DNA of 64,000 nt from positions 2,334,001-2,398,000 of the forward strand of contig NZ_CP016540.2 of NCBI RefSeq assembly GCF_001186155.3, given 5' to 3'. The stretch's first letter is position 1; every line of letters begins with the position of its first letter. The notes beneath the pieces are model-generated. The model made no database searches and was not told the origin of the DNA. It saw only the letters and a program-made list of their open reading frames with translations. Positions 31,129 through 33,395 of the stretch are shown here, piece after piece. A program made the position numbers and the translations under genes. The stretch comes from Planococcus versutus (GTDB taxonomy: Bacteria; Bacillota; Bacilli; Bacillales_A; Planococcaceae).

Positions 31129-31339
31129 TTCATTTAGTTGATTAGTCTCGATAAACTATCATTCTGTGAATAATATAATAGTAGTTTTTATTAGAAGTAG
31201 AGATATTTATGTCAATATACCTATCAAAAGAGCTTTATCTATTGTTTCCTTCATCAATATTTACCGAAGTAAGCATATTTTCCCTTTTTTTCATTTTTGG
31301 CTATTTTCATACTAAAAAAGCAGTTTATTTAGAAAATTG

Positions 31340-31349
31340 ATGATATCAT
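31340..31349. promoter_or_regulatory. Palindrome ATGATATCAT upstream of the RRNPP regulator
   Basis: A 10-bp perfect inverted repeat 166 bases before the regulator start, in an AT-rich region. It could be an operator for autoregulation, but short AT palindromes are frequent by chance. The rest of 31129-31515 shows no RNA gene; the in-frame extension of the regulator back to GTG 31384 is judged non-coding. Confidence 0.25.
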
Positions 31350-31515
31350 AGATACAAGATAGACAAATAAAGAAATATAGGATGTGGAGGCGACAATTAT
31401 CGTACTTGGCGATCTATTTTCTTCATACTTTTCGGACAGTACTAGACAGGTAGAAAACAACTCTCCTATATGGTTAACAGAGGTACTGCCCCTGCAAAAG
31501 GAAAGGAGAGCAGTA

Positions 31516-32805
31516 ATGGACACGGGAATGCGCTTGAAATATCATCGATTGAAACAAAAAATCAGTTTAGAAGAATTCTCCTCTGGCATACTCTCTCCAC
31601 GAGAATTAAAGAAAATTGAAAGTGGCATTAAAGATCCCGCATTAAAAGAGTTAGAAGCTTTGTGCAAAAAGCTAGACATTCCTTTAGCCCCTAAAGATAA
31701 TCCAATTGGAAAAGTTCTGGTAAAGAACTTCAAAAATTCTTTATTGCACCCGCAAAACAAAGCCCAAATTATGGAGCAATATAACGATATCCAAGGACAT
31801 CCTTTACTGAACGCTGATGAAGACGTCGAGTTAGAGTACAGCATCCAACAAATCAGGTATTACATCATCACTGGTGATTTGGATAGTGCCGAAGACAAAA
31901 TCAAAGAAATGGATCGATTTAGAGAATTTATGAGTCAAGAGCAGTTTTACTTATTTCATAAGTACAACGGGAATTACAATTATATTCTTAATGACTTTGA
32001 GAAATCACTAAAAACCTATCTCGTCGCTGAAAAAATAGCTCCACCCTCTATCTCTGCTTCAGAACTTGGAGATCTTTATTATTCAATTGGAATTGCTAGT
32101 ACTAAATGCCGAGAAACCGAAATGGCTTATAAGTATACAGAGATGGCCTTAAAGATTTACCAGCAGGAATTTATTCCAAAACGTATTGTGGAATGTCATT
32201 TGAATATTGCTATTACTCATCAGCATTTTGGCAATTTTCGCATGTCGATGCAACACTACAAAAATGCTTTAACTATTGGAAATAAATTAGAAATTGATAT
32301 TTTACGCTTTACGACAGAATACAATATAGGATACGCTTACTTTTTGTATCAAAATTATGAACCAGCCATTACTCATACTGAAAATTCACTAGATTATATA
32401 CATCCCGAGTATCCTGCCGACATCCTCATAAGCTATTGTGTTTTAATAAAATGCAATTATGAGCTTGGTCGTATTGCAGTCGCAAAAGAGTGGTTGAGAA
32501 AAGGATTAGATATAGTTGAAAACAAAAAGATAAGTATAAACTCACCAACTAATAAAGCTTTTAAAGAAGCATATATCGAATTTATATGTCTGGATCATTT
32601 AGTAAATAAAAACTTTGTGGAATTTGAAAATTTTATTTTAAATAAATTGCTTCCAAGCTTAGAGAACACAAGAAATTTCTTTGAGATGGGTTACTTTTTA
32701 AGTCATTTAGCTGATGTTTATTACCAACAAGAAAGATACAAAGAGTCAGCAATGTACATGAGCAAAGCAAAATATGCATATAAAAATACAACTATTTTAT
32801 ATTAG
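31516..32805 (+). CDS. RRNPP-type (NprR/PlcR-like) XRE-TPR transcriptional regulator
   Basis: A 429-residue cytoplasmic regulator, the same size class as NprR. Residues 1-60 form a Cro/C1-type helix-turn-helix (MRLKYHRLKQKISLEEFSSG.. LSPRELKKIESG, then PALKELEALCKKLDI). Residues about 110-425 form roughly eight TPR-like helical pairs, for example FGNFRMSMQHYKNALTI, YQNYEPAITHTENSL and QQERYKESAMYMSKAKYAY. RRNPP proteins bind re-imported oligopeptide pheromones in the TPR groove, which changes DNA binding. The immediately downstream gene encodes a secreted repeat peptide, as expected for such a pair (compare nprR-nprX and plcR-papR). The ATG at 31516 follows GGAAAGGAGAGCAGTA; 44 more in-frame codons upstream lack similarity. 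Family assignment is by visible architecture; target genes are unknown. Confidence 0.85.
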   Translation: MDTGMRLKYHRLKQKISLEEFSSGILSPRELKKIESGIKDPALKELEALCKKLDIPLAPKDNPIGKVLVKNFKNSLLHPQNKAQIMEQYNDIQGHPLLNADEDVELEYSIQQIRYYIITGDLDSAEDKIKEMDRFREFMSQEQFYLFHKYNGNYNYILNDFEKSLKTYLVAEKIAPPSISASELGDLYYSIGIASTKCRETEMAYKYTEMALKIYQQEFIPKRIVECHLNIAITHQHFGNFRMSMQHYKNALTIGNKLEIDILRFTTEYNIGYAYFLYQNYEPAITHTENSLDYIHPEYPADILISYCVLIKCNYELGRIAVAKEWLRKGLDIVENKKISINSPTNKAFKEAYIEFICLDHLVNKNFVEFENFILNKLLPSLENTRNFFEMGYFLSHLADVYYQQERYKESAMYMSKAKYAYKNTTILY

Positions 32806-32817
32806 GGAGTGAACGTG

Positions 32818-33339
32818 ATGAAAAAGGGTGTCACTATATTATTTTTTTCTATATTAACGTTTAGCACTTTATCATTTAACACTAGTTCTGATAAGGAACT
32901 AGCTGCTCAAGCTCGCGTTCCTGAGCCTTGGTCTATCGGCACTGAAGTGGCTGCTCAAGCCCGCGTTCCTGAGCCTTGGTCTATTGGCACTGAAGTGGCT
33001 GCTCAAGCTCGCGTTCCTGAGCCTTGGTCTATTGGCACTGAAGTGGCTGCTCAAGCTCGCGTTCCTGAGCCTTGGTCTATTGGCACTGAAGTGGCTGCTC
33101 AAGCCCGCGTTCCTGAGCCTTGGTCTATTGGCACTGAAGTGGCTGCTCAAGCTCGCGTTCCTGAGCCTTGGTCTATTGGCACTGAAGTGGCTGCTCAAGC
33201 TCGCGTTCCTGAGCCTTGGTCTATCGGCACTGAAGTGGCTGCTCAAGCCCGCGTTCCTGAGCCTTGGTCTATTGGCACTGAAGTGGCTGCTCAAGCTCGC
33301 GTTCCTGAGCCTTGGTCTACTAAAAAGCAACAACTCTAA
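32818..33339 (+). CDS. Secreted multi-copy signalling peptide precursor (nine tandem peptide units)
   Basis: A 173-residue precursor. Residues 1-28 are a Sec-type leader: KK, the hydrophobic core VTILFFSILTFSTLSF, then NTSSDKEL. Eight exact copies of AAQARVPEPWSIGTEV follow, then a ninth AAQARVPEPWS ending in TKKQQL. The gene starts 12 bases after the regulator stop behind AGGGAGTG, on the same transcript. In RRNPP systems the pheromone precursor lies directly downstream of its receptor, is exported by Sec, trimmed by extracellular proteases and re-imported by an Opp permease. Each unit contains A-x-A (AQA) before RVPEPWS, which could direct cleavage. The ninth copy lacks IGTEV, so the shared core is within AAQARVPEPWS. 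The alternative of a structural or antimicrobial repeat protein is possible. No homologous precursor is known to me. Confidence 0.85.
   Translation: MKKGVTILFFSILTFSTLSFNTSSDKELAAQARVPEPWSIGTEVAAQARVPEPWSIGTEVAAQARVPEPWSIGTEVAAQARVPEPWSIGTEVAAQARVPEPWSIGTEVAAQARVPEPWSIGTEVAAQARVPEPWSIGTEVAAQARVPEPWSIGTEVAAQARVPEPWSTKKQQL
32902..33318 (+). repeat. 48-bp in-frame tandem repeat, 8 full plus 1 partial unit
   Basis: Eight 48-bp units (32902-33285) and a ninth of 33 bp (33286-33318). Units differ only at two silent third positions: GCT/GCC before CGC, and ATC/ATT before GGC. Scoring both sites, the order of unit types is A B C C B C A B and a final truncated unit. Unit G+C is about 56%, clearly above the flanking DNA. 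No indels break the frame. Confidence 0.97.
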
Positions 33340-33356
33340 ATTTATCATCGACTACA

Positions 33357-33395
33357 ATAGCTATCGCTAATTTCTTTTAGTGATAGCTTTTTTAT
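33357..33395 (+). terminator. Rho-independent terminator after the peptide precursor gene
   Basis: AGCTATCGCTAA and TTTAGTGATAGCT pair with one G-T mismatch, followed by TTTTTTA, 18 bases after the stop. It closes the regulator-peptide operon. Confidence 0.8.

Follow-up and report, generated by a model that had tools for sequence, protein, structure and literature searches.

Why would a bacterium write the same short peptide many times into one secreted protein, and is that peptide a signal for the regulator encoded next to it? The locus that raises this question belongs to Planococcus versutus and lies in a 64,000-nucleotide stretch of its contig NZ_CP016540.2 (the window), where a regulator gene is followed directly by a gene for a repetitive precursor (Table 1). 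An earlier note on this DNA had read the two genes as a new quorum-sensing cassette. We conclude, with a probability of about 0.85, that they form a chromosomal NprR-like quorum-sensing pair of the RRNPP type, with a secreted polyprotein as the source of the signal. The anatomy of the genes, the fold of the receptor, the conserved pairing, selection on a hexapeptide within the repeat and the variation of the peptide along receptor lineages are the observations that carry this reading.

The regulator is 429 residues long, inside the 250–500-residue range of receptors in RRNPP/RRNPPA pairs. The open reading frame (ORF) at 31516–32805 and its Pfam domains bear out the architecture proposed earlier, an XRE helix-turn-helix (HTH) domain followed by tetratricopeptide repeats (TPRs; TPR_12, E = 1e-12; TPR_12 and TPR_1 both above the cut-off). 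NprR is a sequence match with an E-value of 2.7e-10 over residues 71–415, at an identity of only ~20%. The AlphaFold model of the regulator (predicted local distance difference test, pLDDT, 93.1; predicted template modelling score 0.88) retrieves NprR or Rap chains at all of ranks 1–36 in Foldseek. The fold alignment with NprR spans residues 60–423, and residues 60–429 of the model superpose on the Rap/NprR fold as a whole, a span that may take in a counterpart of the NprR 3-helix bundle. NprR and Rap are thus the nearest solved structures, which supports the original RRNPP assignment, and the fold is equally close to both. Unlike the Rap phosphatases, which are defined by having no HTH, the regulator matches HTH_3 above the cut-off. 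Asn270, invariant in both regulator alignments (22 and 40 sequences), aligns with Asn226 of Rap3T, a peptide-anchoring residue (PMC11343458; papers are cited by PMC number and for the accessible portions of their text), and is a candidate for the peptide-anchoring Asn of the TPR groove. The closest named homologues of the regulator are from Planococcus or Planomicrobium, the nearest at 87%.

The precursor has two in-frame starts, GTG 32809 and ATG 32818, of which the ATG has the better Shine–Dalgarno sequence and lies 12 bases from the end of the regulator gene, the spacing given in the earlier note. Its N-terminus, read by eye, is a predicted Sec export signal. The window contains one tandem array only (Tandem Repeats Finder, TRF, default threshold), at 32902–33319, with a period of 48, 8.7 copies and 97% matches. 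The codons for the hexapeptide RVPEPW occupy positions 32914–32931 and recur every 48 bp to 33298–33315; they occur nine times genome-wide, all nine in the precursor, and the reversed control pattern occurs 0 times. The array had been described as nine 16-residue copies: nine RVPEPW cores are indeed present, but there are eight full 16-residue units, and the ninth unit has a different tail, TKKQQL.

Which part of the unit is the signal was read from differences between copies within a precursor. Of 50 precursors, 44 with three or more copies entered the comparison; the six set aside lack an array (two), are masked (two) or have two copies (two). Distinct variant codons were counted per precursor, ignoring mutation bias, and per-position counts come from 44 or 46 precursors. 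Between copies, the codons of RVPEPWS differ by 5 non-synonymous to 101 synonymous variants, against 39 to 88 in the linkers (Fisher p = 1.8e-7). In the six residues RVPEPW, the ratio of non-synonymous to synonymous variants is 2 to 96; it is 2 to 14 in the residue that precedes them and 7 to 27 in the Ser that follows, and farther from the core the non-synonymous share rises to between one third and two thirds. Because non-synonymous variants are scarce in RVPEPW and commoner outward, this hexapeptide is taken as the core, and the mature signal is probably RVPEPW, with the Ala before it and the Ser after it as possible ends. The region AAQARVPEPWS(IGTEV), in which the signal had been placed, is therefore correct and can be narrowed.

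Co-conservation of the two genes, set beforehand as a test that could refute the pairing, was found within the genus, at paralogous loci and at the nearest loci of sister genera. The regulator is present in 46/46 genus genomes, and in 43/46 genus loci it is directly followed by a multi-copy precursor of PxPW type (2 to 14 copies). The other three are unscorable (in L038 and L043 the contig stops 140 and 149 bases past the regulator, and in L019 masking falls within the array); a single-copy precursor was seen at none of the scored genus loci. Among the 43, the core of L045 reads RVTEPW, and L046 is partly masked. Five genomes have a second, ~30% identical regulator, with repeats downstream in 5/5 and a changed core, ILWPQPWS or IHPNPWS, in the precursors. 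The three nearest loci outside the genus again have multi-copy precursors: five copies of IIPEPWS in L080 (Planococcus lenghuensis by identity of P0089), a two-copy VPPPF precursor in L081, still downstream of a sister-genus regulator that is split in two frames, and six copies of YPPPWS in L082 (Paenisporosarcina cavernae). Five more distant family loci (L083–L087) carry short single-copy propeptides. At family level (E = 1e-30), matches were found in 54/261 genomes and 5/19 genera; the order-wide search covered the same 261 genomes. At class level there are 16 matches outside the family, and the 15 loci fetched comprise 4 with a multi-copy precursor, 7 with a single-copy one and 4 without a candidate. 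A scan of named genomes gave 37 loci, every one from Planococcus or Planomicrobium. A homology search with the precursor returned one protein (7,995 word-sharing candidates scored); known near relatives are absent from its listing, so this search says nothing on distribution.

In the window and 19 further Planococcus loci (20 in total), the genes flanking the pair are largely shared; one sister-genus locus has part of these surroundings. A mobile-element origin of the main locus was considered and rejected, given these largely conserved neighbours and no plasmid (near DNA only) or phage match. A divergent second PxPW pair, seen in three species (L154, L156 and L150), has differing surroundings, unlike the main locus; its neighbours, judged by eye, are toxin–antitoxin-like genes in one species and a transposase-like gene in another.

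These distributions bear on two other explanations of the array. The repeat protein could be a secreted effector (surface, antimicrobial or matrix) that the neighbouring regulator controls; it is long, repetitive and secreted-looking, and Pfam labels it Cornifin, above the cut-off, though the match reads as one of composition to PEP repeats. We consider such a role improbable, since the gene directly follows that of an NprR/Rap-type receptor, the arrangement found in known pairs, selection is focused on the hexapeptide while the linkers are more variable, the copy number ranges from 2 to 14, and single-copy short propeptides occupy the same place in 5/5 distant family loci and 7/15 class-level loci. 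Alternatively, neutral replication slippage might have multiplied the unit of a single-copy propeptide, leaving the extra copies idle. Wide copy-number variation between species is what slippage predicts, yet RVPEPW is kept across the copies and the multi-copy state holds at every scored genus locus, which makes idle copies, if anything, slightly less probable still than an effector.

The reading as a pheromone polyprotein places the locus among several known systems. As in NprR–NprX of the B. cereus group, where the signal is SKPDIVG, an HTH and TPR receptor is followed directly by its propeptide gene. The Planococcus pair differs from NprR–NprX in its ~20% receptor identity, its PxPW core, the 2 to 14 copies found genus-wide and the conserved leader upstream. 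The yeast alpha-factor precursor also contains several pheromone copies in one secreted protein, but organism, receptor and processing are unrelated, and the likeness is an analogy only. Among atypically large NprR propeptides, repeats were reported in 17/17, with up to six identical copies (PMC9765709). In Rap–Phr systems, the receptor is without an HTH; the Phr propeptides of phages phi105 and phi3T have two copies each, both of which are freed by extracellular proteases, and the discussion of the same paper cites multi-copy propeptides with up to eight copies (PMC11343458). AloR–AloP of Paenibacillus polymyxa are likewise genome-mined RRNPP-type receptor–propeptide operons, but a genome has many distinct pairs rather than a single multi-copy one; the accessible text mentions no tandem repeats for AloP (PMC7425212).

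Since multi-copy propeptides (to six, to eight) are already published, the type of system is known, and the claim of a new cassette needs to be divided: multi-copy propeptides are not new in themselves (PMC9765709, PMC11343458), whereas the PxPW lineage with its signal family, its occurrence throughout the genus and copy numbers as high as 14 seem to be new in the literature searched. The accessible text of PMC9765709 has no mention of Planococc-, though its NprR data set may still include Planococcus cases, and the accessible main text of PMC12700828 has none either. A search of one open collection of papers found none combining Planococcus and RRNPP; strings of the core were found there only in six papers unrelated by title, and the two longest strings nowhere. 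The 'strict' candidates of RRNPP_detector are propeptides of 10–100 aa (PMC10075063). At 173–176 aa, the precursor is outside this range; in total, 38 of the 48 precursor ORFs read (the 48 include four paralogues and one masked) exceed 100 aa. This limit is a setting of the search tool, not a biological definition.

By the proposed mechanism, one operon would encode a cytoplasmic HTH–TPR receptor and then the secreted polyprotein precursor. Sec would export the precursor, and extracellular proteases would release up to nine peptides with the core RVPEPW, likely (A)RVPEPW(S). An oligopeptide permease would re-import the peptide, which would then occupy the TPR groove and alter DNA binding by the HTH. 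Every step here, from operon transcription through export, proteolysis, import and binding to the transcriptional output, is one that we infer, with export, cutting outside the cell and import proposed by analogy with NprR–NprX and Rap–Phr. The high copy number most likely raises the signal yield per translated precursor. The genome encodes eight SBP_bac_5 peptide-binding proteins, none of which is tied to the RVPEPW peptide.

Three results weigh against this picture. When the receptor was modelled in AlphaFold as a read-through fusion with two copies, the peptide was not placed with confidence: the regulator part was modelled well, but the tail had a pLDDT of 24–42, peaking (42) in the block that opens the first copy, so that this docking attempt lends no support. 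No target gene can be named, as nowhere else in the genome is there a convincing site for the conserved upstream block; the regulon search with this block returned its own site and one 2-mismatch site, and the reversed control also returned one. Finally, Spo0A is present in 46/46 genus genomes, so that output could also run through the phosphorelay. The receptor might then be peptide-controlled and act mainly by protein contact, with Spo0F or another response regulator, the HTH being secondary. Besides Spo0A, the fold as close to Rap as to NprR and a sister group without HTH inside the same clade speak for this, and both Rap and NprR work that way, with Spo0F as the partner of NprR and Spo0F/ComA as the partners of Rap (PMC9765709). 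Yet in 46/46 genus orthologues the match extends over the HTH region, whose ratio of non-synonymous to synonymous divergence (pN/pS) is low, 0.18 over codons 1–62. We regard action mainly by protein contact as unlikely, if well worth bearing in mind, and retain the NprR-like pair with transcriptional output.

The history of the lineage was followed in trees of 47 and 30 rows, which include no B. cereus NprR or Rap sequence and have some long branches. The PxPW regulators included in the 47-row tree (23 rows, with three HTH-less rows whose precursor is unknown) form one clade with a Shimodaira–Hasegawa-like approximate likelihood ratio test (SH-aLRT) support of 100. Counting only rows with a known precursor, the multi-copy state requires three changes in this tree, in the PxPW clade, in L163/L165/L167 and in L173. 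The propeptides of L163, L165 and L167 end in three identical SEPDHPKIV copies and follow NprR-like regulators. L173, from another Bacilli family, has a 143-aa precursor, thus also above 100 aa, with nine DNSPGIKSL-type units after an NprR-like regulator. Inside the PxPW clade, P0099 and three relatives (P0095, P0097 and P0098) have no HTH match; the HTH-less receptor with known neighbours is that of L082, the Paenisporosarcina cavernae locus with the YPPPWS units. Together with P0100, whose cut N-terminus does not allow the HTH to be judged, these four form one group in the 30-row tree (support 95/90), and the place of this group beside the Planococcus group is weaker (81/71). The branch looks like a loss of the HTH parallel to that of Rap.

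The regulator is preceded by a conserved leader. The start had been put at ATG 31516, which is one possible reading; the upstream frame is also open to GTG 31384 (473 aa), and the stretch is conserved. The 132 bases that precede ATG 31516 continue the reading frame of the regulator without a stop in 48/48 sequences, and the other two frames have stops in 46/46 and 39/46 genus sequences. The leader pN/pS is 0.61 in frame vs 0.88 and 0.90 out of frame, and synonymous divergence (pS) is 0.38 in the leader vs 0.77 in the HTH. In several pairs (e.g. L013 and L025), pS is 0.00–0.07 in the leader vs 0.23–1.05 in gene windows; L001–L003 (0.41) and L021–L025 (0.61 in a comparison without gaps) are exceptions. 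Because of the open frame, the pN/pS and the low synonymous divergence, the leader appears to be under constraint at the nucleic-acid level and perhaps at the protein level too. At its conserved beginning, no ATG, GTG or TTG is found in genus loci L032, L035 and L036, nor in L080. The CTCTCCT–AGGAGAG pairs, by which the leader might mask the Shine–Dalgarno stretch, are kept in 23/23 of the sequences aligned, a subset of the 48; the bases scarcely vary there, and covariation therefore argues neither for the pairing nor against it. The leader of the window folded alone has a z of 0.29, with 116/200 shuffles folding at least as well, and the anti-Shine–Dalgarno pairing is accordingly argued from conservation. 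Further upstream, in an alignment that spans 48 upstream regions (22 displayed), the block GCAGTTTATTTNGAAAATTGATGATATCAT is strongly conserved within the genus and not found in two aligned sister-genus sequences; the whole genome gives one match to it within 3 mismatches. An Rfam scan of the window gave no match, and a promoter scan was uninformative (9 sites vs 8.9 expected).

In L037, the leader DNA is 86–95% identical to that of three members of the window's group, and the receptor from ~residue 280 onwards has only 19–50% mean amino-acid identity to this group. L037 may be a mosaic or a case of very fast receptor change; like some pairs, it combines a near-identical leader with strongly diverged TPR halves. 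Recombination and fast receptor evolution are not separable here because synonymous divergence is near saturation.

The processing and purpose of multi-copy pheromone precursors have been called a mystery (PMC9765709, Discussion), which has since been answered in part, for two-copy Phr propeptides only (PMC11343458). The locus offers a good way to ask why some bacteria put so many signal copies into a single precursor. Each scorable genus genome carries a system with 2–14 natural copies and a hexapeptide core read from selection, so that whether copy number sets the timing or the threshold of the response becomes testable. The 100-aa limit of the standard detector leaves such long precursors out, and the receptor clade with apparent HTH loss offers a comparison case for Rap evolution. 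More tentatively, and at somewhat less than even odds, we suggest that Planococcus and its sister genera share a distinct RRNPP lineage with 2–14 near-identical PxPW peptides per polyprotein. In this lineage, slippage-varied copy number would serve as an evolvable gain of quorum sensing, a conserved RNA leader would be able to mask the ribosome-binding site of the receptor, and one branch without the HTH would parallel the way in which Rap is proposed to have arisen from an NprR-like ancestor; long precursors beyond the 100-aa detector limit would also occur elsewhere in Bacilli, as in L173.

Table 1. Positions of the pair and its associated elements in the window.
Feature	Position	Strand	Basis
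Conserved 30-bp block GCAGTTTATTTNGAAAATTGATGATATCAT, candidate promoter/operator	31320..31349	+	Upstream-region alignment
Conserved in-frame leader, possible 44-aa N-terminal extension and/or regulatory RNA leader	31384..31515	+	No stop
CTCTCCT, complementary to the regulator Shine–Dalgarno stretch	31461..31467	+	Consensus fold
AGGAGAG, Shine–Dalgarno stretch for start 31516, pairs with 31461–31467	31504..31510	+	
RRNPP-type receptor/regulator (429 aa; XRE HTH and TPR superhelix)	31516..32805	+	Pfam, AlphaFold, NprR/Rap matches
HTH DNA-binding domain, regulator residues 7–58	31534..31689	+	HTH_3 PF01381, E 2.4e-07
TPR peptide-binding region, regulator residues ~100–429	31813..32802	+	Pfam, AlphaFold model, fold alignment
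Asn270 codon	32323..32325	+	Aligned with peptide-anchoring Asn226 of Rap3T
Putative pheromone precursor, 173 aa from ATG (176 aa from GTG 32809)	32818..33339	+	ORF reading
Predicted N-terminal export signal, KK then ~16 hydrophobic residues	32818..32889	+	By eye, end approximate
Nine copies of the 48-bp/16-residue unit AAQARVPEPWSIGTEV, last truncated	32902..33319	+	TRF
Intrinsic terminator-like hairpin with T tail, 3' of precursor	33359..33388	+	Position

The region 32899–33370 around the array is also open in other frames on both strands, with ORFs of 128 and 149 aa. These extra ORFs and the Cornifin label, rejected as the identity of the precursor, seem to be by-products of the repetition and might lead automated annotation astray. 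The hairpin scan found 1 terminator-like hairpin vs 1.8 expected in shuffles, and the terminator candidate is thus argued mainly from its position. At L002 (G000:C1:849201-852908), the same genome has a second RRNPP-like regulator, 21% identical, which directly follows a subtilisin-like protease gene (identified by eye) and is itself followed by a 33-aa propeptide-like ORF ending in NGPNVLPPL.
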